From assembly GCA_002049455.2 (NCBI GenBank), contig KV918825.1:62001-126000 (forward strand): a stretch of DNA of 64,000 nt, given 5' to 3'. The stretch is from Porphyra umbilicalis. Its lineage: Eukaryota; Rhodophyta; Bangiophyceae; Bangiales; Bangiaceae. The notes beneath the pieces are model-generated. The model searched no databases. It had not been told where the DNA came from and worked only from the letters and a program-made list of their open reading frames with translations. The translations under genes were made by a program, and so were the position numbers. Shown here piece after piece: positions 8,059-59,410 of this stretch (position 1 is the stretch's first letter; every line of letters begins with the position of its first letter).

Positions 8059-8650
8059 TGTAGCAAAACAGAACGTGGATCAAGTCATAGGGGGGAGGGA
8101 AGCATCCCGCACGTTCCCCCTCCGAACGTGCACTGCTATAGGGCCATCGGACCCGGGAATTCAGGCCGCCAGAGGTGATGACACAAGGCACGGTTTACTT
8201 GCCGGCGACGACGGTGCCTCCCACCGTCGTCGCCCTTCGTCCTAAATGGGCGGAAACCGCTACGTGGGCCCGATTCCCCAAATGGGAATTGGCCCGCGCC
8301 GCCGACCAACCAATACAACTAAGTACACTGCACGACAGGTCCCCCAATGCGGTAAGAAGACACGAGGGGGAACCGGGACCGGGCGCCCCTACCTGACGTG
8401 GCGGCCGGTGGCGCGCCCACGCGGGAGCGCTCGCCGCCCGACGTAACCGCCGCCCCGCGCGGGCCCGCCGGCCGCGGCTGCGCGCCCTCAGGCCGGGTTG
8501 CACGCACCGCACCTTCCCAACCCCAGTGTGGGCGCGATGCCCATGCCCCGAGGGGACAGCAGGCCCGTGTGCCGGTGGGGATCGTGTCCGCCCGACCCCG
8601 GCTCCCCCCGCGCCGTGCCCCAGCACCACCCCCGACCAGGTGGTGCTACA
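8059..8650 (-). repeat. Solo Ty3 LTR (family C) inserted in Copia gag
   Basis: 592 bp with short inverted ends, TGTAGCA on the left and TGCTACA on the right. The flanking 5-mers are CACCC (8054-8058) and AACCC (8651-8655), a near-perfect target duplication. Copia gag coding is recognisable on both sides, so the LTR landed in that element. It shares the conserved hairpin block (8204-8234) and overall layout with the LTRs at 15491-16141, 26405-27052 and 56685-57237. Those LTRs belong to minus-strand elements, so this one is given the same orientation. Confidence 0.8.
8204..8234. promoter_or_regulatory. Conserved LTR hairpin (copy C)
   Basis: A 13-bp perfect stem, GGCGACGACGGTG against CACCGTCGTCGCC, with a 5-nt loop. 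The same hairpin is present in all four LTRs of this group in the window. Confidence 0.65.
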
Positions 8651-10459: not shown

Positions 10460-11000
10460 TCTTTTTTATATGCCGTGCGCCGGGCGCGTCCGCATGACGC
10501 GCACCGCCGCCGCCCACCGCCCCCCGCCTCCGTCCGCCGCCGCCCATTGCCGCCCACCGACCGACGTCGTGCCCACCGTCGTGTGTCACCGTCGTGCGCC
10601 ACCGTCGTGCGCCACCGTCGTGCGCCACCGTCGTGCGCCACTGTCGTCACGACCATCTTCTTTGCGTTAACTCGACGCGCACCGCCGCGCACCGCCGCCC
10701 ACCGCCGCCAACCGCCGCCCACTGCCACCTACCGACCGACGTCGTGCCCACCGTCGTGCGCCACCGTCGTGCGCCACCGTCGTGCGCTACCGTCGTGCGC
10801 CACCGTCTTCACGCCCATCTTCTTTGCGGTAGCTTGACGCGCACTGCCGCAGACCGCCGCCCACCGCCGCACACCGCCACCCACCGCTGCCCACTGCCAC
10901 CCACCGACCGACGTGGTGCCCACCGTCGTGCGCCACCGTCGTGCGCCACCGTCGTGCGCCACCGTCGTGCGCCACCGTCGTGGCACCCATCTTTGTCGCA
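10460..11000. repeat. Higher-order tandem repeat upstream of the Harbinger transposase
   Basis: Three long units anchored on ACCGACCGACGT at 10556, 10731 and 10903 (spacings 175 and 172 bp). Each contains a variable run of the 13-bp subunit GTCGTGCGCCACC and ends with a relative of CATCTTCTTTGCG (about 10652, 10817 and 10988). The last unit stops about 40 bp before the transposase ATG, so the array occupies the promoter position of that gene. Confidence 0.85.
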
Positions 11001-11036
11001 GTAACATTTGCTTGGCCAACGTGTGGCCGACAGGCA

Positions 11037-12485
11037 ATGGACGAGGCGGGTGAGGACGAGCTGGAGCTTTCGGCGGTTCTGGGCGCACGAGCTTGCTTTG
11101 GAGCGCGCCGTGCACGGCTAGCCGTATGTGTGGGTCATGTGCGCAAACGTGCGGGGGGCTCTCGACGCGGGCGCCGACCTGATCGGCAGCGTGATTTTGG
11201 CCTGGATGCGTTTTCCATTCTGCGTGACTATTTCGGTGTAGACGGGCAGCCGCCTGTGTACGGCGAGGACGAGTTTGAGGACCGTTTCCGGATGCCGCGT
11301 CCAGTTTCCAACCGCTTGTTCCGTGCCATCTACGACCAGCCGTTCTGGAGGCGTAGTGTCAACGCTACCGGCCGCCCGCAGGCTCATGCCATCCAGAAGG
11401 TGGCGGCTGCTTTACGAGTGCTGGGGTACGGCGAGTCGTTCGATCGCGCGGATGAGTACTGCCGGCTCTCCCGCTCTACCATTGACGACGCCACCCACCG
11501 CCTCCCGGACTTCATCATCGACAAGTGGGAGTCGACGTACCTTCGTCGCCCGACGGACGTGGAGCTGGAGCACATTCTGACGCGAAATGCGGCCCGCGGT
11601 ATGCCGGGCTGTATGGGCTCCATCGACTGCACACATTGGCAGTGGCACAAGTGCCCAAAGGCCCTTTGCAGGCAGTACCCGGACCGCAAAGGTAAGCGCT
11701 CTGTCGTTGTTGAGACGGTATGTGATGAGCACCTATATATCTGGCATTTGTTTGTTGGCTGTCCTGGGGCGTACAACGACATGAACGTGCTGGTATCGTC
11801 TTCGCTGATGCTTGACGTGAACGCGGGTGCTTGGCCACCAAGGACGTACAAGTACACACTGAACGGCCGCTCTCGTCGCTTGCTCTTTTACGCGGCCGAT
11901 GCGGGCTACCCTCGGTATGCTCTGTCTGCTCTCCCGCACCCGAAGCCTGACGGTCCCAAACTGCTGGTGTACAATCGCCTCCAAGAGGCGGTGCGCAAGG
12001 ATGCAGAACGTCTTTACGCGGTATGGTGGTCCCGGTGGTTCATCATGAAGTATCCGGCCCGATGCATGTCGGTTTTACGCCTGATCAAGACGGCAAAGAC
12101 AACTGCCATCCTGCACAACATGGCCGTCGAGCACAAGCGGCATGGCTTCATTGCTGCAGTGCGCGGGAGCGCTGCCGCGGCCGACGGCGGCTCACGTACT
12201 GGCGACGGACAATTGGTGGCCTTCACCAAGGATGCGGGGCCGCAACAATATTGTGTGTGGGGCGAGGCGGTGGCCGCCGCGACAACTCATGAGCCCGAGG
12301 CTGCAGACGACGGTCGAGGTCCTATCGTTGGGCCAGCGAGGTACATGCACATGGCCGAGGCCGAGGCCAAGAACACCGACCGTCACTTTTCGTTGCTCAA
12401 CGACTTTTCGGAGCACGTTTGGGCAGACCGCGGTAGACTGCGAGCGCCCTATGTACGCTTGCCGCTGTCTGGGGCACACGAGTGA
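11037..12485 (+). CDS. PIF/Harbinger DDE transposase
   Basis: Nuclease-type transposase of the PIF/Harbinger superfamily (plant transposon protein family), 482 residues in one open frame. I start it at the ATG at 11037 because the in-frame extension upstream translates the tandem repeat. A helical DNA-binding-like segment lies at about residues 119-160. The catalytic triad is visible: D197 in GSIDCTHWQW, D248 in GCPGAYNDMNVL and E324 in KDAERLYAVWWSRW, with spacing normal for the family. Other family landmarks are LYIWHLFVG and YAADAGYP. The roughly 100 residues after about 385 are less typical. Family members cut and paste DNA, normally with a Myb/SANT-like partner. A Myb-like gene lies at 27053-28851 and 15218-15490, but no link between them can be shown. 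I could not find terminal inverted repeats or a TWA target duplication. Length and motifs suggest an intact enzyme, or a domesticated gene. Confidence 0.9.
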   Translation: MDEAGEDELELSAVLGARACFGARRARLAVCVGHVRKRAGGSRRGRRPDRQRDFGLDAFSILRDYFGVDGQPPVYGEDEFEDRFRMPRPVSNRLFRAIYDQPFWRRSVNATGRPQAHAIQKVAAALRVLGYGESFDRADEYCRLSRSTIDDATHRLPDFIIDKWESTYLRRPTDVELEHILTRNAARGMPGCMGSIDCTHWQWHKCPKALCRQYPDRKGKRSVVVETVCDEHLYIWHLFVGCPGAYNDMNVLVSSSLMLDVNAGAWPPRTYKYTLNGRSRRLLFYAADAGYPRYALSALPHPKPDGPKLLVYNRLQEAVRKDAERLYAVWWSRWFIMKYPARCMSVLRLIKTAKTTAILHNMAVEHKRHGFIAAVRGSAAAADGGSRTGDGQLVAFTKDAGPQQYCVWGEAVAAATTHEPEAADDGRGPIVGPARYMHMAEAEAKNTDRHFSLLNDFSEHVWADRGRLRAPYVRLPLSGAHE

Positions 12486-13069
12486 GGTTGCTGGGGGCTG
12501 AGGTGTCGATGACCACGCCGAGCTGTGAAGCAAAGGTTTTTTTTCCCGCTAGTCGGGTTTTTTTTCCCTTCGACATGCTTGTTGTCCCTCATCGTCCAGT
12601 TCTCTGAGTGGGGGGGGTAGACTGCCAACAATGTGTACCTCTAAAGCCCCTGGCTCACCTCTCTCCAGGCCTACGAGACGTCGGCAGATTTGCTGTTCAT
12701 GCCTCCCAGAGGCAGCTGGCCATGGTCACTGGAACTCGGCGCGCAGGCAGAGCGTGTTCTGCAAATATGAAACAGCTGTGCGCCAAAGGACTCTGAGACT
12801 CTGTACAGATGTTTTATTATTATTTTATATATAAATGATATGATGCGAGTGGTGCCGCCTACCGCGAGTGGCGCCGCCTCCCGCCGCCGCTCTCGCAGCT
12901 ACCAAGATGCAACAGACAGCGCCTAGAAGGACGGCGTAGGTCTTGAGACACTGCCGTGGTGAGGAGAGAGCCAGACCCACACCCCCCTTCCCCTCTTCCG
13001 GCACCCCCAGCCAACTACACCGCGGTACTGCGACAACACGGAACCAGCCGCCCCCAAAGCCTTCACCGA
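12486..13069. other. Unassigned 3' flank of the transposase
   Basis: Two T8 tracts at 12537-12565 surround CCCGCTAGTCGGG, which can fold as a short stem. An AT-rich patch (TATATATAAATGATATG) lies near 12828-12845. No clear AATAAA or transposon end was found. Confidence 0.4.
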
Positions 13070-14480
13070 CGACACATGCCGACGCCCCAAACGCTGCCAC
13101 CGACAACACGCGCCGCCGTCGCCGAAGCCGCCACCAAAACTGGCCGCCGCCGCCCTCAACGCCCAAACCGACAACGCACGCCGCCGCTCCAAACGCGACC
13201 ACCGTAAGGGCCAGCCGCCGCGCCCAGCGCCGCCGCCGACAGCACTCGCCGCCGCTGCTACCGCCGCCACATGCAACGGCCGCCGCCGCCCTCAACGCCC
13301 AAACCGACAGCGCACGCGACCACCTCAATCACCAACACTGAAAAGGAAAGCCGCCGCACCGAGCACCGCTGCCGACAGTACTCGACGCCGCCGCCAATGC
13401 CGCTACCTCCAACAGCCGCCGACTCGCCCAATGCCCCCACCGAGAACTTACGCTGCCGCCCCAAACGCCACTACCGACAAGGCCAGCACCCGCACTCCGC
13501 GCCGCCGCCGACAGCACTCGCCGCCGCCGCCGACGTCGCCACCTGCAATGGCAGCCGCCCCCCCCAATGCCCCCACCGAGACATCACGCCGCCGCCCCCA
13601 TCGCCGCCTTCGACATGGCCAGCCGCCGCCTCCAGCGCCGCCGCCGACCGCACTCGCCGCCGCCGCCACCGCCACCTCAAGAAACGGCCGCCGCCGCCCT
13701 CAACGACCAGACCGACAACGCAAGCCGCCGCCCGCAAAGAGACCACCGTCAGGGACAGCCGCCGCCCCCAGCGCCGCCGCCGGCAGCACTCGCCGCCGCC
13801 GCCAACGTCGCCTCTCGAACCAGCCGCCGCCGCCCTCAAAGCCCAAACGGACACCGCACGCCACGCCCTCAAACACCAGAACCGACGAGGAAAACCGCCG
13901 CACCCAGCGCCGCCGCCCACAGCACTCGACGCCGCCGCCAACGCCGCCACGTGCAACGGCCGCCTCTCTCCCCAAGGCCCCCACCGAAAACGCACGCTGC
14001 CGCTCCCAACACCACCACCGCCAGCGCCAGCCGCCGCCCCCAGCGCGGCCACCAACAGCACTTGCCGCCGCCACGAGCGTCGCCACCTGCAATGGCCGCC
14101 GCCGCCCTCAACGCCCAAACCCTCAATGCACGCCAGGCACCTCACCCAACACCATCATTAAAAAGGCATGCCGCCGCCCCCAGCGCCGCCGCCGACAGCA
14201 TGCGCCGCCGCCGCCAACGTCGCCATCTGCAACGGCTGCCGCCCCCCCCAAGGCCCCCACCGAGAACGCACGCCGCCGCCCCCAACGCCACCATCGAGAA
14301 GGCCAGACGCGAAGGCCAGCCGCCGCACCCAGCGCCGCCGCCGGCAGCCCTCGCCGCCGCCGCCAACGCCGCCACCTGCAACGGCCGCCGTCGCCGCCAA
14401 CGCCCTCACTGACGACGCACGCCGCCGCTTCCAGCGCCGCCACCGACGACGGACGCCACCTCCTTCAACGCTGGCACCTG
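13070..14480. repeat. Degenerate satellite, unit about 137 bp
   Basis: About ten copies of a 133-140 bp unit, anchored on versions of CCGCCGCCCTCAACGCCC at about 13149, 13286, 13425, 13555, 13690, 13829, 13967, 14105 and 14245. Because 138 bp is 46 codons, several frames stay open for hundreds of codons on both strands. I treat these as by-products of the array, since their translations are repeated Pro/Arg/Ala without a recognisable fold. Confidence 0.8.
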
Positions 14481-15217
14481 AGATGAACGCTGGCAAACTC
14501 AGCACCACAGAAGATGCACGGTGGCAAGCTCAGCACCCCCACCAAGCAGGCCTGCCACCGCCCCCCGAATCGCCACCTGCAACGCTTCGTGTCATTGGGG
14601 GGGGGCAGGCGGAGAGGCAGGGATCAAGTGTTGTCGTGGGGGGAAGGGAGTGGGAGGGGGAGGGGCAGCGACGCCACGCGGGAGAGGGGCGACACAACCA
14701 TGCGGCGCTGGCGCCGGTACGAGAGGAGGTGTTCAAAATGCGGGGATCCACTGCTTCTACATCCGTACTCTTCAAATATCCCGCAGTCTGAAGTTTTCGC
14801 TCTCCAACTGCTACAGAAGTGTTCCAAATGGGCGTTGAGGACGCCGCCGAGGCCGCTTTCGGACGCACACGCAGCATTCGGAGTGCGAATTATTTCGGCG
14901 AAGTGCTGTCAATTTGGCAGTAGGTTCGTCTTTTGATTTCCCTGTATTGAGAATCTGTAAACCAGAGTGGGCAGTGGCGAGTCTGTCGAGGGGAACAAGT
15001 CACAGAGGAAAAAACGTATTGTCTCTGCTGTGCATGCATGGTATGTGCAGTACCGCACAATAGTACCACACAACCGTGATATCGAAGAGCAAGGCACCAC
15101 GAACAGCTACAGAGTTCTTCATCAATATGAGCTACGCAGAGCTCAAACATCAAAGCAGATAGCATACAACCAAAAAAAATAGAAAGCAAGGAAGAGAATC
15201 ACCAGTGTACGCTGGTA
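14481..15217. other. Unassigned spacer
   Basis: The first part is G-rich (GGGGG runs 14597-14660). From about 14750 it is of balanced composition. No gene is recognised. Confidence 0.4.
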
Positions 15218-15490
15218 TCAGAGGGTCGGAAAGGCATTTATCGTGTCGTGAGTCGCGGCCGTGAAGGCGACGGCGGTCGTCTTCGCGTCATCCACGTCAT
15301 CGTGCTCGTCACCGTCTTCTCCATCGCTGGATGAACCCCAGTCCATAGTGTTCAGAACGCGCTGGTCGATATTGAGGCCGTTGGCGCGCGCTCTCTCCAT
15401 GAATAGCTGCTGCTTGGAGACAATGGAGGAGCGGCCTCGATTAGAGGCCGTACGAACAGACGGCGGCAGCGGCGGCCGGCAACTAGAAAC
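15218..15490 (-). pseudogene. Displaced 3' end of the Myb/SANT-like gene
   Basis: This segment encodes an acidic, disordered C-terminus (WGSSSDGEDGDEHDDVDDAK) ending in a stop at 15218. It is in the same frame as the gene part at 27053-28851 once the Ty3 element and one copy of its GAAAC target duplication are set aside, so it is the last 90 or so codons of that gene. The distance is caused only by the 11.6-kb insertion. Alternatively it is a separate small frame, but the frame match at a perfect target duplication makes that unlikely. Confidence 0.75.
15486..15490. repeat. Target-site duplication GAAAC (left copy)
   Basis: Direct 5-bp duplication abutting TGTAGTAC of the left LTR. The identical copy is at 27053-27057. 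Five bases is the usual size for Ty3 integrases. Confidence 0.92.
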
Positions 15491-16141
15491 TGTAGTACCA
15501 CAATCTAGAGGGTTACCTCAGAAGGAGGGAAGTAACGGCCGTCTCAGCCGCTCGCGCGACACCCGCTATGGGACTCGAGGTCCGGGAAGTCGGGCCGATC
15601 GAAACGCCAAGACATCGAGACACGGTTTACTTGCCGGCGACGACGGTGCCTCCCACCGTCGTCGCCCTTCGTCCTAAAAGGGCGAAAACCGTCGCCCGGG
15701 CCCAATTTCCCCAAATGGGAATTGACCCGGGCCGTCACCAACCAATGCAGATGATTCCCTCCATGCATGTCAAGTCCCCCGAGGCGATCATTACATACGA
15801 GGGGGAGAAACCGTCCCGCGCGCAACGCGCTGCACCCGCCGCGTGGCGCCCGGTCGGCCGTCGCCTGCCGCGCCCTCTCGGGCGCGCCAGCGCCCGCTCG
15901 GGCGCGCCAACCCGGCCTCCCGCGGGGCCCGCGTGCCGGGCGCGGCGGATCGGGTGCGCTCCCTCAAGTGGCCCGAGCCGGGCAGCGGGGCCGCCCCCTC
16001 GCCCCGCCATCCCGCGTCGCCAACCCGTCGGCCACTACCGCCGCTGGCGTCGCCCCCACGCGTCGGGGACCGACGTCCCCCGCCGTCGCCGTCGTCCCAG
16101 CGGTGGCCCCCTGGCGCCTAGGGGGGCCCCGTAGTACTACA
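15491..16141 (-). repeat. 3' LTR of element A
   Basis: 651 bp, bounded by TGTAGTAC and GTACTACA (8-bp perfect inverted ends). It contains the conserved hairpin at 15636-15666 and a second imperfect palindrome at 15695-15731. In element sense it is the downstream LTR. The antisense accessory gene starts 15 bp inside its inner edge, so this LTR is the obvious place for that gene's promoter (inference). Confidence 0.95.
15636..15666. promoter_or_regulatory. Conserved LTR hairpin (element A, 3' LTR)
   Basis: A 13-bp perfect stem (GGCGACGACGGTG / CACCGTCGTCGCC) with a 5-nt loop. It is followed at 15695-15731 by an imperfect palindrome centred on CCAAATGGGAATTG. Identical stems are at 26549-26579 and 8204-8234, and one with a single change at 56814-56844. 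Confidence 0.65.
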
Positions 16142-16150
16142 TTCCCTTCG
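16142..16150 (-). promoter_or_regulatory. Polypurine tract of element A
   Basis: On the minus strand, CGAAGGGAA immediately precedes the TGTAGTAC of the 3' LTR. This is the expected position of the plus-strand priming tract. Confidence 0.6.
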
Positions 16151-16156
16151 GCTGAG

Positions 16157-18742
16157 ATGGAGCCGTCCCCGGCGACGCCTCCCGATAGCCCCGTCGGGGC
16201 TCCGTCCTCCGCGCCCCTGGCGAGCCCGCCCCCGGTGGCCGCCGCCCCGGGGCCGGCGCCGGCGGGCGTTGCGCCGCCCGCGTCGGGACCACCCGTTCGC
16301 CGCCCAACCGTCCCCGCCCGCCCGTCGGTGCCGCCGGGTATGCGGCTCCCGTACGACCCGAACGGCCGGGAGTGGCGCAAGCCGCCCCGCCCAGTGGGCG
16401 CCGCCGTCGCGACCAGCGCCGGGGCCGGGTTTGCGGCTTGCCCGGCGGCCGCCCCCGGCGGGGGTCCCGCGGTCGTGCCGGAGGAGCGACCGCCGTTGTT
16501 GGGGCAGTCGGCCCCCGCGTTCCCGCCGCGCCCGGCGCCGCCCGACGTCCGAGCGTGGCTTGCCCCGCTGGGGCCGGCCGTGGCCTCGGCCGACTGGCCG
16601 CTCGTCAGTGACGTCTTCCTCTTGGCTCATCCCCACGACGCCGGCGAGGCCGCTGCCGTGTGGCGGGCCTTCAAGGAGTTCGCCAAGGTGGCGGGGTACG
16701 GCACCCGGCCGGCGGCCGAGCGCGACTTCGCTTCCTTCGTCCGCTCCGTCGGGGACAGCGCGGCGTGGCTACGCTGCATGTTGCGGTGCAGCCCGGGTCG
16801 GGTGCCCTTGGTCCCGCATCCCGCGGCCGAGCCCCCGTTCGTCGCCGGCGAGGAGGAGTACGCCTACCTCGAGGACTGGCACACCCGCCTTCGCCACCGC
16901 CCTGCGGTCCCACTCGGTCACTCCTTGGCGCTCGCCAACTTCGGGGGCGTGGGCCCCCTGATCGCATTGGCGTCGGTGGGCCCCGCGACCGCCCCGGCGG
17001 ACTTGGCGTTGGAGGCCGCGCGCCGCGCGCGCGGCGAGCTCGTAAGCGCCCGACGGGCGGAGCACGGGGCCATCTTCCTGTCCGTCCGCCCCGGCATCGC
17101 CTTGACGCCGGCGCGTGCTCCCTTGCCGCCGGCAATGGCCACGCGGTGCGCGACGCCGCGGCTGCTGAAGTACGAGTACCTGCCCGTCGTGCACCAGCAG
17201 CAGTCGCTGCTTCAGGCGTTCCCGTGCCACCCTATCCAGGGCACGGCCTACGTCATGCTGACGGCCGCCATCGTGTCGGGGATGCTGCGTGCATACCGCG
17301 AGACGCACCGCGTCTTCGAGCCGTCGCCGTGCTACTACGACTTGACGCGGAAGTTCAAGGTCGACGACATCGCGCCGGGCGACAGCGGTGCCGCGGACGC
17401 CATTGAGGAGTACGATGCCATCGTGAGGGCTGTGCCCTGGGCGGCAGTCCATGACCTGCTGCTCTACCACCACGACACCACTCGTCAAGCCCCCAGCACC
17501 CTGCTGCCCCACCAAGTGGGTACTGTGGCGGACGGCCGGCGCCACTACGTTCGCGTCGTGAACGTCTTGCGGACGCCGCAGACCCCGTTGGGGGTCATGC
17601 TCGCGGAGCCGCGGCTCGCGGACGTCGCCCCGCGGGCGTTGCCCGTGACGACGGAGCCTTGGGCGATACCGGCCGGCTTCACTTCGCCCGACCCGGACGC
17701 CGTCCCGCCGTCGACGGAGGAGGCGGCCGCGTCGGCCGCGTGCCGCGCGCGGAAGCGGCGCCACGCCGACATGGCGCGTGGCGGCCCGGCTCCGCCTGTT
17801 CCCCGCCACCCGGGGCCCCGGGACCCCGAGGGGGAGGAGGAGGAGGTCAGCGCCGGTGACCCCGGGGGTCCCGACGCCTACTTCCGCGGCTTCTCCTCGT
17901 CGACCCGTGTCGGCAACGCCGAGTGGGGCCCGCGAGAGGCGGGCCGCGAGGACCGAGCCGGCACGGCTCATGGCGAGCACTGGGACGCGACGTGGCGCGG
18001 CGACCGCGCCGACACTGCCGGTGACCGGCGCGGGCGCGGGTGGGCGTCCGAGTCGGGCGGCGGCGCCGCTGCCCCCCGTCGCGACCACGACGACCGCTGG
18101 GGGGACGGCGGCCACGGCCGCCGTGCCGACGTGCGGGACAACCGCGTGTGGTCGGCGGCCGGTCCGGGTGACGACCGCGGCTGTATGGCCGACGGCCGTG
18201 ACGGGCCCGCGTGGCCCTCCGACGGCGGCCAGGGCCGCGACGGCGCCGCTAGCGGCGGGGGCTACGGGCGGTCCGCGTACCGCCCCGCCGGCGAAGCCGC
18301 GGCGCCCGCCGGTCCGCGCCCCGCGCGTTGGGATGCCGCCCCCGCCAACGACGGCCCCGCCATGGCGCCGATGGAGCTCGGGGTTGCCGGTCCCATCGTG
18401 ACCCCCGTTCCGGGGCAACCAGACGTCGCCTACGATTGGTGGCTGTCCGCATCGTGGACGCCCCCTACCCCGGTGACGGCCACGGAGTGGCGGGACTCGC
18501 TGACGTCCGGGCAGGTTTTCGCCTCGTTCGGGTACGACCCGTCCATCAACTGGTCCGAGGTGGGGCCGTGCGAGATCACCGCCGCGATGGTCGAGTACGC
18601 CCGCATCGGGCTCGCCGCCGACGTCCCCCCCTGCCTGGAGCCCCCGCGGACGCGGCCGAAGCGGTTCCACGCCGCCCTGCGGCGCGTCCTACGTAAGGCG
18701 GGTCGCCCCGTTCACGTATGGGAGTTTCGTCGTCGCGACTGA
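16157..18742 (+). CDS. Antisense accessory gene of Ty3 element A, unknown function
   Basis: 861-residue open frame on the strand opposite gag-pol, between the 3' LTR and the integrase end. I chose the ATG at 16157 because the frame upstream runs into the LTR. Residues 1-125 are Pro/Ala-rich. About 128-470 looks globular and helical, with aromatic and acidic residues that the surrounding by-product frames lack (DVRAWLAPLG, PRLLKYEYLPVV, AAIVSGMLRAYRETHRVF, AVPWAAVHDLLL). A basic patch RKRRH near 533 could be a nuclear signal. About 540-740 is Gly/Arg/Asp-rich and probably disordered. The C-terminus (YDWWLSASWTPPTP to the end) is again ordered-looking. The element at 56685-64000 has a diverged relative at the same place and orientation. 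AATAAA follows 67 bp after the stop. No known family is recognised. Antisense extra frames are known in a few plant Ty3 lineages such as Grande, but I see no similarity I can name. Confidence 0.75.
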   Translation: MEPSPATPPDSPVGAPSSAPLASPPPVAAAPGPAPAGVAPPASGPPVRRPTVPARPSVPPGMRLPYDPNGREWRKPPRPVGAAVATSAGAGFAACPAAAPGGGPAVVPEERPPLLGQSAPAFPPRPAPPDVRAWLAPLGPAVASADWPLVSDVFLLAHPHDAGEAAAVWRAFKEFAKVAGYGTRPAAERDFASFVRSVGDSAAWLRCMLRCSPGRVPLVPHPAAEPPFVAGEEEYAYLEDWHTRLRHRPAVPLGHSLALANFGGVGPLIALASVGPATAPADLALEAARRARGELVSARRAEHGAIFLSVRPGIALTPARAPLPPAMATRCATPRLLKYEYLPVVHQQQSLLQAFPCHPIQGTAYVMLTAAIVSGMLRAYRETHRVFEPSPCYYDLTRKFKVDDIAPGDSGAADAIEEYDAIVRAVPWAAVHDLLLYHHDTTRQAPSTLLPHQVGTVADGRRHYVRVVNVLRTPQTPLGVMLAEPRLADVAPRALPVTTEPWAIPAGFTSPDPDAVPPSTEEAAASAACRARKRRHADMARGGPAPPVPRHPGPRDPEGEEEEVSAGDPGGPDAYFRGFSSSTRVGNAEWGPREAGREDRAGTAHGEHWDATWRGDRADTAGDRRGRGWASESGGGAAAPRRDHDDRWGDGGHGRRADVRDNRVWSAAGPGDDRGCMADGRDGPAWPSDGGQGRDGAASGGGYGRSAYRPAGEAAAPAGPRPARWDAAPANDGPAMAPMELGVAGPIVTPVPGQPDVAYDWWLSASWTPPTPVTATEWRDSLTSGQVFASFGYDPSINWSEVGPCEITAAMVEYARIGLAADVPPCLEPPRTRPKRFHAALRRVLRKAGRPVHVWEFRRRD

Positions 18743-18808
18743 GGGCATCGCCCTGGCCCCGTAGGTGTGGCGCTTAGTCCGACGGCGTTCGGTCGTCTTC
18801 CGCCGTAG

Positions 18809-18814
18809 AATAAA
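18809..18814 (+). terminator. AATAAA poly(A) signal of the antisense gene
   Basis: A canonical hexamer 67 bp past the stop of the 861-residue frame and on its strand, in a very GC-rich stretch where AATAAA is unlikely by chance. It suggests the antisense transcript ends before the integrase coding region. Confidence 0.6.
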
Positions 18815-21800
18815 GCCGTGGGCTTGTCCTTAGTCCCACTCAGCGTCCGCGGCCCGTTGTGGCCCCGCCACGTCTTGGCATAGTCCCCCAAAAACCCCAG
18901 AAAAATCCATCCCCCCCCCCCGCCGCGCCCGGCCACCGCGCCGACCCAAGGGGTCAGGCACGGATGGCCGGGGGCGGCGCGGCGGCGCCGCCCGAGGCGG
19001 CGCCGCCGTCGGCAGCCGAGGCGTGCGGGGCCGCCGGCGGCGGGTCGGCGGACGTGTGGGGCAGCCCCAGGCGTGCGGCGCGGCGCAGGTAGACGCGCAG
19101 CGTCTCGTGCGGGGCGTCCGCGGCGTCCATCCAGGTGGGCTGCGGTTATCCGGTCCAGTAGACCTGGACCCGGAGGGTGCCGTCGGGCAGCGTCGCGTGG
19201 TCCGCGATGCGGTCCACGGCATACCGCTGGCCGTCGGCCTTCGCCCCGTGGAAGGAGCGCGCGGCCCGCAACGCGGGGTGTTGGGCAGGGGATTCGGCGG
19301 CCGTGCCCGAGGCGCGGACGACGTGCGCCACGTTCTCCCGTCGGTGCTCCCCGTCCACGTCCAGGAGGACCGTCGGGCCGTCCGTGGAAACCACGCGATA
19401 CGGTCCGCGGGCGACGTGCGTCAGTTTGCCGCCGGCGCCCTCCTCCTTGGCGTGGTCACGCAGCCACGCGCAGCCCCCCACGGTGAGCTTCTCCGCGCGC
19501 AGCGGGAGGCCCGTGTCGTGGTCGCGCTTGTAGCGCCCCTGCGTTGCCTTTAGCGTTGCCCGCATCTGCGGGATGAGCTGAACGAGGCGGGTCAGCAGGG
19601 AGGCTTGGGCGCGCTTCTCGGCGGCGGTGCCGCGTTGCGCCGTGATGGGGTACGCCCCGGACCTCGGGATGTTCTTGAAAGCCCAGGTGGATACCCCCAT
19701 GGGGTTGACCAGTTCCAGCGGGGCATTCCCGGTGCTACGGTGGGGGCGGCTGTTGTACGCCAGCGTCAGGGCCCCAAGGAGTTGGTCCCAGGACCGCGGA
19801 TGCTCCGCCACGTAGTGGTTTAGGATCGTATGCATCGTGCGGTTGAACCGCTCCGTCTGCCCGTTCGTCTGCGGGTGTGACGGTGACGTCACCTTAGGCT
19901 CGATGGAGAGCAGGTTGCAAACCTGGCCCCAGAAGTGGCTGGTGAACTGGGGTCCCCCGTCCGAGAGCAGCCGGTCCGGCGGGCCATCAGCGCCCACCCA
20001 GTAGTCCTGGACGGCCGAGGCGTAGTCCACCGCCGACGTACCGTCCATCGGGATGGCGCGCACCAGCTTGGTGAACCGATCGGTGATCACCAGGATGATT
20101 CGATGGCCGGCGGCCGTTCGGTCGAGGGGCCCGTAGAGGTCCACAGCAATGTCCTGGAAGGGCATGGTGGCGGGGAACAGGGTCAGGGGCGATCGCCGTG
20201 CCAGCGGGCGCACGCGCTGCCGGGCACAGCTGTCGCATTTCTTAACATAGGAGACGACGTCGGCCGCCATCCCCACCCAGTAGTAGTACCGCCGCATCGC
20301 CGCGTACATGCGGGATTCCCCGGGGTGCCCGGCGAGGGTCGCGTCGTGCTCCAGGTGGAGGACCTGCTCCTGCAAGGAGGTCGGGACCACCACCTGGTGG
20401 GCGCCATCGGGCGCCGCGCGTCGCCGGAGGACCCCATCGGGATCCTCGAAGAACGGGATGTGCCGCCCGTCATTCAGGGCTTTCAAGATCTCCTTGCAGT
20501 ACCCGTCGTCGGCTTGGGCCGAGAGCACCGCGTCGCGGTTGATGCCACGGACCGTTGGGCCGCCAACGTAGTTGGCGGCGTCGAGCCCCCGGACCGTGTT
20601 GGCTCGCACAGCGAAGACAGGGACCGCGTCGTCGAACGCGGTCTCATCGCTGGCCCCGGACTCCAGGCGGGAGATGCTGTCGGCCATGTAGTGTGTCATC
20701 CCCGGCTTGTAGGCGACGTCGAACTCCAACTCGCTGAGGCGAAGGCGCCAGCGCGCCAAGCGGGGATTCCCCGAACCCTCAATGTTGAGGATCCACCGTA
20801 GGCAGTCGTGGTCCGTGCGCACGAGGAAACGATCACCCTCGAGGTAGGGGCGGAGCTTGAGCGACGCCCAGACGACTGCCAGGCACTCCGTCTCCGTGAC
20901 CCCGTAGGGGAGCTCGTTCGTTGCCAGCCGCCGGCTGATGTACGCGACCGGCTTGAGTTTCCCGTCGTCTTGCTCTTGCAGCAGGGCGGCGCCCACCTGC
21001 GTCCCGCAGGCATTTACGTCGAGGACGTACTTCCGCCCGCGCCGCGGGAGTGCGAGGACCGGCGGGGTCGTGAGGGCCTCCTTGAGCCGGTCGAACGCCT
21101 GCTGCTGCAATGGCGTGGCAGGGGGCACCAGGACGGGGGCCGTGGACCCCATGAGGTCCGTCAATGGCGCTGCCATCCTTGCGAAGTTCGGCACGAACCG
21201 GCGGAAGACGTTGCACATCCCCACGAAGCCCCGCACTTGCGTGCGGGTCGTGGGGAAGTGCGCCTCGCGCAAGGCGCGCGTGTGCGCGTCCATCACACCG
21301 AGCCGGCCCGGCTTGATTTCATGCCAGAGGTACTCCACGGTCTTCCGAAAGAACCGCACTTGGGCAGGCGGAGTGTCACTCCCGCGTCGCGAAGCAGGCG
21401 CAGAACGCGGTCGACGTGGCCGACGTGCTCCTCCTCCGTCTTGGAGTACAGATGACATCGTCGAGGTAGATAAGGCAGCTTTGCCACTTCACCCGGAGAG
21501 GATGATGTCCAGCGCCCGCTGGAACGTGGCCGGGGCGTTCGTTGGCCGAACGGCATCCGTTTGTACTGGTACGCGCCCTCGTGGCACACGAAAGCCGTCT
21601 TCTCCCGATCTTCGGGTGCGATGGCAACCTGCCAGTAGCCGGCGTTGCAATCCAACGTCGAGAAGATGGTCGGCTCACCGAGGCTGTCGATGCATTCGTC
21701 CATCCGGGGCAGCGGGTACGAATCCTTCTTGGTGACGACGTTCAGCAGTCGATAATCGACGCAGAAGCGGAGGGTGCCATCCTTCTTGGGGACGAGCACG

Positions 21801-24800
21801 ACCGGGAAGCCCCATTCCGAGACGTCGGTTCGATGACGTCCGCCTCCAGCTGCCGCTTGACCTCGGCCGTCTCGGCCTCCCGCGCCGTGTGCCCCGCACG
21901 GCGCGGTGCGAAGCGGACGGGCCGGGCGCCGGCGTTGAGGTCGATGCGGTGCTGGGTGGCTTTGATGACGCCGAGCGCCTGGCCCGTCCACATTGCCTTG
22001 TGCTGGTCCAGCATGCGGCGGATCCGGGTGTGCAGCGTCGGGTCGACGTCCGGCAGGTCCACGTCCTCCACTTGCGGGGGGGACGCGGGTGGCGCCGCGT
22101 TCGCCGGGCGCTTTCTTCGCCCGGGTCCCGGGGTCGCGCGGGGGTCGCAGCCGCACCGCCTGAGGCCGTCGCTGGGTCCGGGCTCCGCCCCGGCGCGGGG
22201 TCGTCTCCGGTGCTTGACACCGCCGCCACGACGCCTTCGGCGGCCGTGGCCGGCGGGAAGGCCGGGGCGGCCGGTGTACCGGGAGGTGCCCCGGGGGGCA
22301 CCTGTACGACCCCTGTCGTCAGCAGCTCGACGTAGCCGACGTTGGCCTTCTGCCGGAGGATGACCTCGCGCGCGCCAAAGTTGGTCACGATGACCGGGAA
22401 AGATAGCCCCGGCACGATATCGTGTACGCCGTTGGCGATGGTGACCCCATGCGTTGTGAAGAGGCGCGAGGCGCCGATCACCTGACCCAGGCCGCCCCAC
22501 ATGGTCCGCACCCAGACGACCGTGGCCGCCGACGGCGGAAGCCGCGTCTTGTGCGTCGCACGAAGGACGCAGAGACGCCCATCGAGCGGTCGCCATCGTC
22601 CAACGGTCCCCGTAGGATCGCCGTGACGGACCCGTCCGTCCAACGGATGGACCTATCCTGAGGCAGGATGGCGTGGGCGTTGTCGTCGATGAACGTGCAG
22701 CCCAAGATGACCGGGACCGACAGGTCGTCGACGATGAGGAAGGGGACCGGGACGATCCGTGCGCCCGTCTGAAGCCACAGCGTGACGGTCCCGCTAGTGC
22801 GTAACCGTGCGTTGTTGGCGTCTCGCAGACGTACCTGTTCCTCCTCCTTAGAGGTGACCACCTGGCGGAGCCATTCAGGAGCGAGGGCGTCCCGGCGGAC
22901 CAAGTTGGGGCCCGCCCCCGTGTCGACGACGACGCCGAACGCGCGGAGGGACAGCTTGTCCAGCCCCAGAGAGGCCACGATGCGGTAGTTATGCAGATGA
23001 AGAGCAGCACTTCCCCGTTCCGGGGCGGGGTACCCGGCGCGTGCGTGGTGTCCGCGACGGCGGCGGCGTGCCGGAGAAAGCGGGTACGTTCGCGCCGGGC
23101 GCGTCCCCGAGGCGCCGCCGGGGCCCTGGCCCGGTGCGCGCCCCGTTGGCGGGTAGGTCCGCTGGGATACCATCCCCGCCACTCCACGGCCGGGGGTCGG
23201 AGTGGCTCAGGGCCAGACCGACGCGGCGACCGGCGGAGACGAAGAGACGGCCTCAGCGGCCACCGGCGTCGCCGGGACGGGGCAGTGGTCCGGCTCGTCC
23301 GCCGTCGCGTGGCTGACCCCCCCGGGCCGCGCGAGGATGCGGGGGCAGAAGGCGGGCGCCGGCGGGAATCCCGCAGCGGCCCGCCGCTTGCGTACCTGGC
23401 GCAGGCGGGTCGCCGTGATGTAGCAGTGCCGGTGTGCCTTGAGACGGACGACGTCCGTGGGCAGCCCCTAAGGGGGCTGCCCCTTACTCGTTTCCCTGGG
23501 CGTGGCGGTGTGGCCGTTCCCATGACTCGCGCCGTCGGCGCCCGCGATCCACTCCTCGGAGGAGCTCTCCCCCTCGTCGCCCGCTACGTCCGGGTACGCC
23601 CGGTCATCCGTTTCCACGGCGTGGACGAAGGCAGCCGTGCCCGGCGGGACGGTCCCATGGTTGGCGCCGGTCGGCGGTACCGGTGGAACCGGCGGTCCCG
23701 CGCCCAGGGGCAGGGGTGCCGGCGGCGCCGGTCCCCGCCCGTTACGGTGTGCCGCGACTGCTTCGCGCAGCGCGCGCCCGTGGGCCCGCACCTCGGGAGA
23801 CTGGGCGGGGCACTCCCACACCCAGTGCCCCAGGTGGCCACAGAACGAGCAGGCCCCCCGCCGACGTGGCGGGGGCCCCGCCTCGGGTGCCCCACTCCAT
23901 CCGCCGCCACGCGGTGGAGGCGCCCCGCCTCGGGGAAACCGCGGGGGGCGATCCGAGTGCGGGAAGACGGTTCCCGGCCGTGGAGGCACCGGGGTGCCCG
24001 GCGCCAGGGTACCGCGCCCACGCCCCGCCCCCGTAGGCACGGGGTACAACTCCGGGCGCCCGCCCCACGCGGGCTGCTGTTGCCAGCCCGACGCGTGCGG
24101 GAGACTGTCCACCGGTAGTACCGGGACGTCGCCCGAGGATCCATACTCAACGGGCGTCCCCGACGCGGCCAACACCGCGGCCCACTCGGCCCGCTCCGCC
24201 TCGGTCCCGTAGTCCGTGACGGACAGAGCAGCCGCGGCCGAGGCGGCTCCCACCGGGAGAGCGACGGATGCCGCCGGCCGGGCCCAACGGGCCTCCCGTT
24301 CTTCGCCGCCGACCGACCGGGAGGCGCTCCCCTTGGGCTTGGCTTGGAGCTTGACCCCCCGGGCCTCCCGGGTAGCTGCTCCCGTCTTGGCAAGGAACTT
24401 GCGCAGCTTGGGGAAGGTCCGGCCCTGGGTATTGAAGTTCCGCCCCAGGGCCCGGACTTCCCGTCCAACGCCCTTGAGTAGGATACTCTTCAGCTCGGCC
24501 TCTTGTAGGACCGAGCCCAAGGCACGGTTAGCATCGAGGATGCGGTTCGCAAACTCGTGTTCGTCTTCCCACTTCTCTTGGGATGCTTGCATGAGGGCCT
24601 GGAGGTGGTCCACCAGGTCGTCCCCGTCGAGGTACTCGTTGAGTAGGGCGTGGACCGCACGCTCGTACGTGAGCTGCCGCGAGGAGTGGGTGTCCTTGGC
24701 GCGCTGGAGCACGCCGAGCACCTCGCTCGTGACGAAGTACTGCAGCAGTGTCACTGCCGTACCCTCGTTCAGCCCGCTGCCGTCGCACGCCGTCTGGAAG

Positions 24801-26384
24801 GTCCCAAGGAACGCCACCAACCCCAACGGGGTATCGCCCGCAAACTGCCGCGAGGTGTGCATCAAGGCCTTGACGTCCGCGCGGATGCCGCGAATGGAAT
24901 TGCCTCGCGGGAGGTGTAGGCGGCCCCCTCGCTGTGCGAGTCGGTACCGTTCCGGCGCCAGGAGCCCCTTGAAGCGGGGGTCGACCACCGTGTCCTCCCG
25001 CTGCTCCCGCCGGAAGGCGCGCAGCGCCTCTTGAACCAGGGCCCGGTGTGGCCGCTTGTCGGCAGCCCGTGCCCGCCGTCGGCGGCGCGTTGCTCCGGGG
25101 TCACTGCCGGTGGCGGAGGAAGAGGTCGAGCCGTCGCTGCTGTCCGTCGACTCCGCCCTACTGGCGGCGGATGACGAGCTTGACGGACTGTCGTCGCTCT
25201 CGGTCGACGAGGGGGGCCCCGACGAGGGGGGCGACGGCGCGCGTCGGGCGTGGCGCCGCCGTCGGTGGCCCTTCGAGGGGGCGGCCTTCAGGTGTCGGCG
25301 CTCGGCGCCCCTCCGGGACCGAGACCGCGCAGGGCGCGCGCCCGGCGATGCAGTCACCGTCAAGGCGGCCCCGGTCCGGGTTGTGCCCCCCGTCCGGGTA
25401 CGCTCCCTGGACGTGCCTGACCCGGGTTCCGGGGGTGCCGGTCCCCCCGCGCTCGCGGTTCCGGGGGAAGGGCCCTGGGCCGCCGCCAGGGCCAGGGCCA
25501 CGGCCGCGCCCCGCCCCGGGACCGGGGTCCCGTCCGATGCCGCGGTCGACGCTTCCTCCGCGGCGTCGCGGAACACCTGAGCCAAGTGGCGCAGGTGCCC
25601 GGGGTCGGCCACCGACCGAGGTGGTCCTGGGGCCGCGGCTCCGCCGATCCCCTGCAGGCTGGGCCCCGACCCGCCCGTCGCCGACGGCGCGTCCAGGGAC
25701 CAGTGGTCCGGGTGGTCCTCTGCCACCGGGCCCGGGCCACCTCCTCCGGGGTGACCCCGAACGCTCGCTGTAATTCCCGGCGCTGCCGCTCGTCCTCCTC
25801 GAGCGACAGCGCGTCCATTGGTCGACGCGGCCCCCGGCTCGCGGGGGTCCCGCCAACTAAAGTTCCCGATGAACCGCCCACCGCGTCCACTCGGGGAGGG
25901 CCAAAGGGCGGCGCCCCTTCCAGGCGCTGCCCGTCCAGGGGGGAAGGGTGAACCCCCGCACCCCCTGCCTGGGGCTCCATCAGCGTGGACGTCCGTCCCG
26001 CGCCGGGAGGAGGACGAGCCCCGGTGGTCGGCGTGCGGCCGGGGTCCTCGGGCGGGGAGTTCGACTCACCCGCCACCGTACCGCCGCCGCCAACCGGGAC
26101 CGCCCTTCCACCCCCCACGGGGGCCACGGCGCCCAAGGCCGGTGTTGCCCCGGGGTCTCCCGCCGGTGGCGCGTCCGTCACCCGGCTGGTGCCAGGCATC
26201 TCAAACGGAGGAGCGCCCCCGTCAAGCGGGGAAGTGAGGAAGATCCGCGAGCCATGGAAGCGGGGCCCGCGTATCGATCGGATGTCCTCCTGTCACCGCA
26301 CCGCAATACAACCAACGAGGGTCCCCCGATTCTTGGTACCGAAAGAGGTGTCGATCCGCGACGCGCACAGTGTGCGTACCGCGG

Positions 26385-26402
26385 GTCTCACCCGGAGCGC
26401 CA
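26385..26402 (-). promoter_or_regulatory. Primer-binding site of element A
   Basis: Two bases inside the 5' LTR, the minus strand reads TGGCGCTCCGGGTGAGAC. Starting with TGG right after the LTR is typical for pairing with a tRNA 3' CCA end. Which tRNA is not decided here. Confidence 0.75.
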
Positions 26403-26404
26403 AA

Positions 26405-27052
26405 TGTAGTACCACAATCTAGGGGTTACCTCAGAAGGAGGGAAGTAACGGCCGTCTCAGCCGCTCGCGCGACACCCGCTATGGGACTCGAGGTCCGGGA
26501 AGTCGGGCCGATCGAAACGCCAAGACATCGAGACACGGTTTACTTGCCGGCGACGACGGTGCCTCCCACCGTCGTCGCCCTTCGTCCTAAAAGGGCGGAA
26601 ACCGTCGCCCGGGCCCAATTTCCCCAAATGGGAATTGACCCGGGCCGTCACCAACCAATGCAGATAATTCCCTCCATGCATGTCAAGTCCCCCGAGGCGA
26701 TCATTACAGACGAGGGGGAGAAACCGTCCCGCGCGCAACGCGCTGCACCCGCCGCGTGGCGCCCGGTCGGCCGTCGCCTGCCGCGCCCTCTCGGGCGCGC
26801 CAGCGCCCGCTCGGGCGCGCCAACCCGGCCTCCCGCGGGGCCCGCGTGCCGGGCGCGGCGGATCGGGTGCGCTCCCTCAAGTGGCCCGAGCCGGGCAGCG
26901 GGGCCGCCCCCTCGCCCCGCCATCCCGCGTCGCCAACCCGTCGGCCACCACCGCCGCTGGCGTCGCCCCACGCGTCGGGGACCGACGTCCCCCGCCGTCG
27001 CCGTCGTCCCCGCGGTGGCCCCCTGGCGGCTAGGGGGCCCCGTAGTACTACA
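26405..27052 (-). repeat. 5' LTR of element A
   Basis: 648 bp, TGTAGTAC to GTACTACA, about 98.5 percent identical by eye to the other LTR (about six substitutions and three single-base indels). Its conserved hairpin is at 26549-26579. Confidence 0.95.
26549..26579. promoter_or_regulatory. Conserved LTR hairpin (element A, 5' LTR)
   Basis: The same 13-bp stem and 5-nt loop as the copy in the other LTR. Confidence 0.65.
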
Positions 27053-27057
27053 GAAAC
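27053..27057. repeat. Target-site duplication GAAAC (right copy)
   Basis: Matches 15486-15490 exactly and follows the terminal CTACA of the LTR directly. Confidence 0.92.
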
Positions 27058-56684: not shown

Positions 56685-57237
56685 CGTAGCCACAAACCCG
56701 AAGAGGTAAGTATCCCACCGCTGCCGTCCTAAATACGTGTCCCCTATAGGATCACCCGATCCGGGAAGAAGAGCCGCCAAAGGTACAAGGCAAAAGGCAC
56801 GGTTTACTTGCCGGCGATGACGGTGCCTCCCACCGTCGTCGCCCTTCGTCCAAATAAGGGCGGAAACCGACGTGCTGGCGCAATTCCCCTAATGGGAACT
56901 GGTTCGCAACGCCAACCAATCAATACTACTAATTACAACGCAAGACAAGTCCCCTGAGGCGGTACGTAGAGACGAGGGGGATTCTGGGCCACGCACTCCG
57001 CCCTGACGTGGCGGCCCGTGGTGCGGCCACGCGGGGGCGCCGGCTGCGCTCCCCGCCCGCCGCCGACGGGCGAGCCCGGCGTGGCTGGGCGCGCGGCGCG
57101 CGCTTCGCCGGTGTGCCGGTCGTCCCGCGCCCGGTGCCAGCCGTTGAGCCGTGTTGCCCGCGGCTTCCGGGTCTGCTTGCGCCTCCCACGCCGTGCCAGC
57201 TTACCGCCAGCGCCACCCCCCGCCGGGTGGTGCTACA
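56685..57237 (-). repeat. 3' LTR of element B
   Basis: About 553 bp. The right edge is GGTGGTGCTACA, as in solo LTR C. The left edge (near CGTAGCC) is less certain. The conserved hairpin lies at 56814-56844 with one changed base. Confidence 0.7.
56814..56844. promoter_or_regulatory. Conserved LTR hairpin (element B)
   Basis: GGCGATGACGGTG, a 5-nt loop, then CACCGTCGTCGCC. The single C-to-T change keeps a G-U pair if transcribed in the plus sense but gives a mismatch in the element sense. Confidence 0.6.
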
Positions 57238-57249
57238 TCACCATCTTCC

Positions 57250-59410
57250 CAGCAGCCGCCGCCCACGGCGGCCGATGGCACGCCACCCGGCCAAGGCGGC
57301 CGCGACCGCGGCGACGCCCGCTTGGGCGGCCGGCCGTTCCGCGACGGCGGCTGCGGCGGCGAAGGGACCCTAGGGTCCGGCGGCGGCGGCGGCGGCGTGG
57401 GCGGGGGCGCGCCGAGGCACCCCCGTCGGGTCGGTGTCCGCGGCGACGGGAGGGCTTCCCCGCAGCGCGGCGGCGGCGGTGTCTGCGGCGTCCCGTGGCG
57501 TTCTGGGCGTGTCGGGGCGGCGCTCCCGCGTCTCAGCGGCGGCGCAGCCGCCGTCATCGCGCTAGCCGTCGCTGCCGCTGGGGTCGTGGGGGGGGCTGAC
57601 TCCCGGTCACTGTCGGAGTTCTACCGGTGGCGCTTGGTGGCCGAGGCGGCGGCGCATGAGGCCGCGGCTGCCACTTTGGCGGCAGCGCCGGTGGCAGCCC
57701 CGGCGGTTGCGCCAGTGTCGGCGCCGGCGGCGGCGCCGGCGGCGGCGCCAGCGGCGGTGCCGGCGGCCGCGCCCGGAGCGGCGCCGGCGGCGGCCGCGGC
57801 GGTGCCGCGCCCCTAGATCCCGGCGCATGCCGCTGAGTCAGTGCGGCAGCAGGGGTGGGCGCGGCGGCCAGAGCGCGACAATTTGGTGCCGACCTGGCGT
57901 CCGCGACGGCCGACGCCGCCCGGTATGCGGGACCCTGTCCCCCCGTCGCCGGTCTGCTTGTCGCCGCTGGTCTCGCCGGCGCCCGTGCCGGTGGGGATGG
58001 CGGTGGACGTCGCGGAGTCGTGCGGCCTCGATACCGAGGATGTGTGGCTTACGGTGCGGGCGGCTTGTGTCGGCGTGATGCCGGGGCCTAACGATGTCGC
58101 GGCCATTGACGCCGCGTGGGCCCGCATGTAAGCCGTCGGTGAAACGGCCGGTTACCTCGACTCGGACTCCGCGCCCAACATCCTCTCGGCCTTGGCCGGG
58201 CTCGACCTAGCGACGGCCGCCGAATACTTCCGCCGGCTGCTCCGGGTCACCGAGGTGGCCGTGTCTTTGCCGGAGCCGATATTCGACGTGACGGAGCTCT
58301 TCTACGTCGACGGCGTCGCCGGCTACGCCTGGTTAACCGAGCTCCGCTGTCGGCTTCCAACATTGGCCTCCAAGACGTGAGGCGACGCCAACGTCGGGTT
58401 GGGGTACTGGGTGAGGAAGGAGCCCATCCTGACGTCCGTCCCGGGGGCCCGGAACGACTGCACCGCCGAGCGGGACGCCCGCATGCCGGCGAGGTTGGCG
58501 CCCGTGCTTCGTTCCGGGAACGAAGCGATGCGCCTGTCCGTCCGGGATGGCGCCGACCAAGTTTTCCTTCTGCCGCCCGCGCCGTCCGATCCGGACGTCG
58601 TCTTTGCCGCGCCGCGGCTGCTGCCGTGGCACCTTCCCCGCGTTTTCGCGCTTTTGGCGCATCGGCTAGCCACGGCCACGCGGGGCCCCCTCCTTGGCGT
58701 GACCCGCTTGGCGGCGGCCTGCGCCATTGTGAGCGCGTTGCTCGCCACGTACGAGCGCGACCGCCGCTTGTTCCGGCCACCGCCCTTGGCCCCGTGGGCG
58801 GTCGACTGCTTCGGTCCAACTGTGTTGGCGCAAAGGGATGCCCCCAAGGAGGCGACGTTGCGGCTCTTGATAGCGGCGTGGCCACACGTCCCATGGGGCG
58901 CCGTTCGCCGGCGGCTGCCATACGCGTCGCAGGGGAGGAAGCCCCCGCTCATTCCATACGCCCACCGGGGGACGTTGTTGAGCGCCGAGCGCCATTGAAT
59001 TGATGTCCTCCCCCGGGCCGGCACTCCGATCGGGCTCGGCTATTCCGAGCGGGCGTTGCGTGGGGCGTTGCCCATCGAGCTACCCTACGTCGACGTGGAC
59101 GAGGGTGGCGATGGCAACGCCTCGCCCTCGCCGCCCGCGGCCCGTCGCTTGGGTGGCAGCCACTGGGGCGCACCTGCCTCGTCCTCGTGGGGTGCCGCCG
59201 TCGACAAGGCCGCTGCGCGGGGCGCTGCCCCTGCCACCCGCGGCGGCGAGTCGCAGCGGTCCGAATCCGGGGGCGGCAGCGCTGTCGGGCCGTCCGACGA
59301 CTGGGGGCCAGCGTCTTCCGGCAGCGCGGCATTGGGGCCGCTTGTCGCGGGTGTAGCGGTTCTCAGCACCATTACGTTGGTTCATCGTCTGGCCGAAGTG
59401 ACCTCTTGAT
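57250..59410 (+). pseudogene. Broken relative of the antisense accessory gene (element B)
   Basis: Plus-strand coding remnants at the same place and orientation as the 861-residue gene of element A. Shared motifs in the same order: an acidic EYAYLE/GYAWLTE-like box followed by a basic RLRHRP/RCRLP end (58200-58370), then LSVRDG versus LSVRPG, APRLLPWHLPRV versus TPRLLKYEYLPVV, AIVSALLATYERDRRLF versus AIVSGMLRAYRETHRVF, and VPWGAVRRRL versus VPWAAVHDLL (58400-59000). The N-terminal part is Ala/Pro-rich as in the other copy. It is broken in several places. Protein-level similarity with weak DNA similarity suggests the frame was once under selection. Confidence 0.65.

Follow-up and report, generated by a model that had tools for sequence, protein, structure and literature searches.

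The element and the frame on its antisense strand

At one locus of the red alga Porphyra umbilicalis, an open frame of 861 codons runs opposite gag and pol of a Ty3 retrotransposon. Is this frame a gene, and if it is, what could its protein do for the element?

The element, a young one, occupies 15491-27052 in minus orientation within the window, i.e. the whole 64-kb stretch of DNA that was analysed (64,000 nucleotides of contig KV918825.1). The minus strand carries, in Ty3 order, a presumed gag, RT, RNase H and integrase; the arrangement of the three pol domains, the LTRs and a target-site duplication are those of Ty3 elements (Metaviridae). The two LTRs (651 and 648 bp) differ by 6 mismatches and 4 gap columns in an alignment of 655 columns, which includes a few flanking bases. 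The features discussed below are as follows (window coordinates, strand, feature and what it was recognised by).

15486-15490, no strand: left copy of the target-site duplication GAAAC; matches the right copy at 27053-27057
15491-16141, minus: 3′ LTR of the element; LTR alignment
16142-16149, minus: apparent polypurine tract between LTR and ATG; motif judged by eye
16157-18742, plus: antisense gene, 861 codons; open frame and comparative selection tests
16529-17749, plus: core, residues 125-531, the most constrained segment; pooled dN/dS 0.36, family B core related
17750-18361, plus: Gly/Arg/Asp-rich linker, residues 532-735; weak constraint, dN/dS 0.76
18479-18709, plus: helical C-terminal domain, residues 775-851; model confident at ~781-850, relative in family B
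18809-18814, plus: AATAAA, candidate poly(A) signal; 67 bp past the stop of the antisense gene
19146-21458, minus: pol piece with RNase H and integrase domains; domain matches
21293-22156, minus: pol piece with RT domain, in a separate frame; domain match
22478-23182, minus: pol piece in a separate frame, its similarity to protease weak and under the curated cut-offs; domain search
23468-25726, minus: presumed gag of 752 aa containing a CCHC-like stretch that scores under the curated cut-off; open frame and domain search
26391-26402, minus: presumed primer-binding site, internal to the 5′ LTR and 2 nt from it; judged by eye
26405-27052, minus: 5′ LTR of the element; LTR alignment
58084-59313, plus: decayed family B relative of the antisense core; three in-frame stops, profile match without frameshift

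The 861-codon frame starts 15 nt beyond the end of the 3′ LTR and has its stop at 18742 of the plus strand. Since RNase H and integrase (19149-21458) and RT (21296-22156) are read from the minus strand, the frame is antisense, with the 3′ LTR on one side of it and integrase on the other. A sequence-only reading of the locus had described just this layout, a long frame opposite gag-pol in a young Ty3 element with a poly(A) hexamer 67 bp past its stop; the positions of frame, LTR and domains confirm the description, the hexamer being AATAAA at 18809. In 21 of 30 copies of the same element family (family A), AATAAA was seen at the same place (69-70 nt). Two CCAAT motifs are present on the antisense strand of the LTR; they are no proof of a promoter.

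Pol of the 15491-27052 copy is spread over several frames and thus looks broken. The end of pol, where the chromovirus branch of Ty3 has a chromodomain, appeared chromodomain-like by eye in family A as well as in a second family, B; Pfam gave no match for such a domain in the separate pol pieces. A segment of the LTR that includes a GC-rich hairpin (15618-15754 and 26531-26667) was found also at 8186-8322 and 56795-56931; it is common to LTRs of otherwise different elements, with 80-81% identity to the 8186 copy.

How much weight should be given to the length of the frame? None of 300 dinucleotide shuffles of 16142-19145 reached 861 stop-free codons in any of the six frames; still, the longest stop-free run per shuffle had a mean of 396 and a maximum of 768 codons, so that length alone is weak evidence in such GC-rich DNA. 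G+C content by codon position (0.76/0.63/0.89 in the antisense frame) resembles that of pol (0.69/0.50/0.86). The evidence that decides for a gene is comparative.

Selection on the frame in family A

The genome search for family A listed 55 rows, or, with two second pieces merged, at least 53 places in an assembly of 83.8 Mb (665 contigs). Eight contigs of this assembly contain 12 matches to the phycobilisome linker family, which together with the high G+C fits a red alga or, less probably, a glaucophyte. From 30 fetched copies we used the 27 full-length ones, and took the median dN/dS over the 201 of 351 pairs with dS of at least 0.1. The antisense frame had a median of 0.52, whereas for the same pairs the other two plus frames of the region had 1.12 and 1.23. 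Values for the minus frames were 1.07 (the frame of a 633-aa sense ORF), 0.53 and 1.41; the minus frame with 0.53 shares its third positions with the antisense gene and contains 15 stops in the window copy. The sequence-only reading had tied its case beforehand to a codon-position bias among family copies, and such a bias is present.

To control for context, each substitution was redistributed among sites of the same trinucleotide context and the N/S ratio was compared with its expectation. For the antisense frame the ratio came to 0.54 of expectation when the two groups of copies were compared with each other, and to 0.62 and 0.72 inside the groups; the figures for the 633-aa sense ORF were 1.18 between groups, 0.97 and 0.92 within. 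Nonsense changes fell below expectation in the antisense frame (ratio 0.54-0.67) and in the sense 633-aa frame (0.56-0.85) alike, therefore they do not tell the two frames apart.

Constraint is uneven along the protein: dN/dS was 0.36 in the core, 0.58 in the C-terminal part, 0.76 in the linker and 0.82 in the N-terminal part. Integrase had a dN/dS of 0.42 in 88 pairs from 18 copies, and the antisense core, measured in 75 of these pairs, had 0.33; the core is about as constrained as integrase in the same elements. Furthermore, distances between copies computed for the antisense gene and for integrase correlate at 0.94 (16 copies), a value reached in none of 2000 permutations.

The frame continues open upstream to position 15767 within the LTR, and this continuation had a dN/dS of 1.02 (25 copies, five omitted). 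As the LTR stretch shows no constraint, the gene most likely starts at 16157; constraint sets in approximately at the ATG.

Fifteen of the 27 full-length copies had no in-frame stop; the other 12 had stops, as is expected of dead copies. With respect to a reference copy (L001), 30 of 36 length changes in the frame but 0 of 42 in the LTR were multiples of three; this comparison is biased, because copies were chosen as unbroken protein matches, and hence is not used as main evidence. From the substitution data we are highly confident that the frame is a protein-coding antisense gene under selection.

Linkage of the gene to the element

An LTR match was present on the start side of the gene at all 30 fetched family A loci, and at 26 of them the match ended 15-18 nt ahead of the first codon. 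Pol on the opposite strand was located within 4 kb downstream in at least 45 of the 53 family A places; this number is a lower bound, since the pol matches listed come from scoring the best 112 of 1240 candidates. Among the matches listed, no family A place had pol on the same strand downstream or any pol within 4 kb upstream. Of the eight places with no near pol, at least five have pol on the opposite strand of the same contig, at a downstream distance of 5.4-11.5 kb. The copies thus show that the antisense gene travels with pol and starts just inside the 3′ LTR.

Two antisense copies (C103:166777-169359 and C9:387992-390574) look intact or nearly so and have pol 8-12 kb away, against the usual ~0.4 kb; perhaps nested insertions account for the distance. 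The C9 copy contains two in-frame stops.

A second family of elements with the gene

We used the longest stop-free part of the decayed relative at 58084-59313 as a query for a second search, which listed 99 rows: 40 with identity of at least 55%, designated family B, and 59 with identity of 27-33%, which is where family A lies. With five short rows omitted, we counted at least 35 family B places. At least 13 of these had opposite-strand pol within 7 kb downstream, and this pol was 54-62% identical to pol of family A; same-strand or upstream pol was seen at none of the 35, among the matches listed. Part of the family A LTR was matched at 23 of 30 family B loci.

The family B core had a median dN/dS of 0.30 (149 of 231 pairs, 22 copies); the frames that do not share third positions with it had 1.22, 2.02, 1.29 and 1.98, and the frame that does had 0.42. 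Profile alignment of the A and B cores gave a probability of 99.3% with 27% identity over 368 columns in global mode, and 98.5% with 29% over 340 columns in local mode. In one family B copy, 1248 codons run from stop to stop without a break, with the three-part order seen in A and the same C-terminal domain at the end; in another copy the C-terminal domain and the core are in different plus frames. These comparisons show retention of the antisense gene in two element families with cores only ~27% identical. As both families keep it, the gene is older than the split between A and B. The proposal that the lineage encodes an antisense accessory protein is supported by dN/dS in both families, and in family A by the context-controlled tests as well.

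The family B copy at 58 kb in the window has, among the matches listed (best 112 of 1240 candidates), no pol of A or B type nearby. The pol at 61546-64000 was considered as its partner and rejected; it belongs to another multi-copy Ty3 family, and the antisense layout in family B accordingly rests on 13 other places. Elements at 3-2033 of the window and at 3-881 of locus L061 represent another Ty3 family as well, with pol ending in a chromodomain match followed by ~190 further residues; no relative of the antisense protein was found in the 4 kb examined of the L061 copy, from the same genome.

Composition, predicted structure and relatives of the protein

The N-terminal 124 residues of the antisense protein are 29% Pro and 20% Ala; the core of ~400 residues comes next, then a linker made of 20% Gly, 15% Arg and 11% Asp. 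An Arg/Gly-rich linker or tail is present in both families, the Gly-rich tail of family B being longer (its fetched part contains 11 RGG). Of the 35 family A proteins that reach the segment after the core, 29 have a basic motif of RKRxH type there. No basic cluster was present at the corresponding place of one family B protein examined, which weakens the reading of the motif as a conserved nuclear signal.

Structure prediction and a remote-homology search had both been suggested in the sequence-only reading. The full-length model had a mean pLDDT of 46.6 and was confident only for the C-terminal helical domain (~781-850) and one helix near 520-540, with the core at low confidence. The best fold match was weak and limited to the C-terminal domain, too weak to be named (an AAA+ lid was among the folds considered). 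No named family or solved structure scored above chance in sequence searches of Pfam, PHROGs, NCBIfam and PDB; in Pfam, neither the whole protein (cut-off E 0.1) nor the core and the C-terminal part (cut-off E 5) matched any family, TRP28 (PF04195) included. A scan of viral contigs found no relative. It had been said that the protein matches nothing recognisable: this holds for named families in the libraries searched, but not for metagenomic sequences. Relatives that carry no family name numbered at least 23 for family A when searched with one sequence and at least 69 with a profile, these with conserved blocks, and at least 19 for family B (each metagenomic search scored the best ~8000 candidates).

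Proposed role and alternative explanations

Considered as a whole, these observations are probably best explained by an accessory protein gene of an algal Ty3 lineage, situated opposite gag-pol and tail to tail with pol. With the gene start so near the LTR, we infer a promoter in the 3′ LTR that would fire inward on the antisense strand. The transcript would end at AATAAA, ahead of pol, and its protein would presumably act in trans for the element. A Pro/Ala-rich N terminus, a constrained core, a Gly/Arg/Asp-rich linker and a helical C-terminal domain would fit best a nucleic-acid-binding factor, one whose targets may be RNA or DNA of the element itself, at the stage of transcription, RNA fate or nuclear steps. 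This accessory or regulatory role is a tentative assignment, held with somewhat less than even confidence.

One could go further and see here an ambisense Ty3 lineage in an alga, independent of those in flowering plants, in which a large antisense protein with an undescribed core and C-terminal helical domain is required in the life cycle; we would call this close to an even bet, and a shade under it. If so, the element might depend for its replication on this protein, perhaps a factor directed at RNA or chromatin.

The main rival of the nucleic-acid-binding role is a structural one, with the antisense protein serving as a second gag-like or particle protein. The succession of disordered N terminus, core and Gly/Arg-rich tail does resemble gag in outline, and constraint like that of integrase would suit such a protein; we consider it unlikely, as comparison with gag of the same element showed no similarity (blastp E 0.11, profile E 0.77) and Pfam searches gave no capsid-family match.

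An ancestor of the lineage could have captured a host gene that still performs its cellular task in the element; the available text of two papers (PMC7264820, PMC11963269) considers captured cellular sequences as a source of such frames. We give this explanation a small chance: the gene predates the A/B split, and the genome matches listed include no recognisable intact host relative, though introns were left unread in these matches, so that one could be missed, and the flanks of unfetched copies were judged by nearby pol alone.

The main product could also be an antisense RNA, pairing with genomic RNA and tuning the element via double-stranded RNA, with the protein secondary. The antisense position is in favour of such a role, which the accessible part of PMC7264820 discusses for plant elements; yet it leaves the codon-level selection unexplained, and we find it quite improbable.

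That the frame is a chance product of GC-rich DNA could be argued from the long open runs in shuffled sequence and from the 633-aa frame on the other strand; with 861 codons never reached by shuffling, conserved blocks shared by the metagenomic relatives and protein-level selection in both families, it is very improbable, and the selection tests have already disproved it, provided that the alignments are right. Least credible of all, and next to impossible, is that the sense frame of 633 aa (16769-18670, minus) is the true gene, a third frame of env type, and the antisense frame its shadow: it is long, and sense extra frames occur at such a position in plants (PMC7264820, available part), but its dN/dS and context-controlled ratios given above are those of an unselected frame, and its product had no more than weak chance matches in the rest of the window, in which the antisense protein found its family B relative.

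Relation to known antisense genes

An antisense accessory gene in a Ty3 element has counterparts in plants, where such extra genes have been reported since the 1990s with no established role (PMC7264820, available text). Grande gene23, RIRE2, Retand and PvRetro13 share with the present gene the place between pol and 3′ LTR and the strand, along with many copies and divergent families; the analogy with Grande, drawn earlier from the sequence, fits the layout. The Grande antisense protein is described, in the same text, as nuclear and transcribed from its own promoter. Retand elements often carry tandem repeats between pol and the 3′ LTR (PMC11963269, accessible part), and tandem repeats also lie between antisense gene and pol in the family B copy that has core and C-terminal domain in different frames (a 115-bp unit repeated ~12 times at 883-2291 of locus L062). 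According to the accessible part of the same paper (PMC11963269), Retand antisense proteins, reported from flowering plants, contain TRP28 (PF04195) in 97% of clusters; the present protein has no match to TRP28 and its host is an alga. By position, then, this is the same kind of gene as the plant ones, with a different protein and an algal host.

Outside plants, Boty of Botrytis cinerea is a fungal Ty3-type element with an additional antisense gene, brtn (PMC7264820 and PMC8365987, as far as their available text goes); the trait shared, by description, is an antisense extra gene in a Ty3-type element. HBZ of HTLV-1 is an antisense retroelement protein with its promoter in the 3′ LTR (available parts of PMC7264820 and PMC11963269), and its likeness to the present gene is an analogy of layout alone. 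Sense env-like frames of plant LTR elements occupy the same interval between pol and 3′ LTR on the opposite strand; the sense frame found here shows no selection.

Titles and beginnings of abstracts, a set covering few subscription papers, mentioned no red-algal retrotransposon with an antisense gene; both the protein family and an algal host for such a gene appear new. Selection at the codon level indicates that the antisense protein is of roughly the same importance to the element as integrase. This selection, on an algal antisense protein outside any named family, suggests that antisense genes in the position between pol and 3′ LTR have originated or persisted repeatedly because their protein is functional. 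Two defined segments, the core and the C-terminal domain, are directly testable for binding and location.

Other features of the window

Upstream of the element, positions 10941-12485 contain a transposase-like frame with matches to Plant_tran and DDE_Tnp_4. A diverged repeat array with 34-bp spacing, strong strand asymmetry and several open frames extends over 13038-14493.
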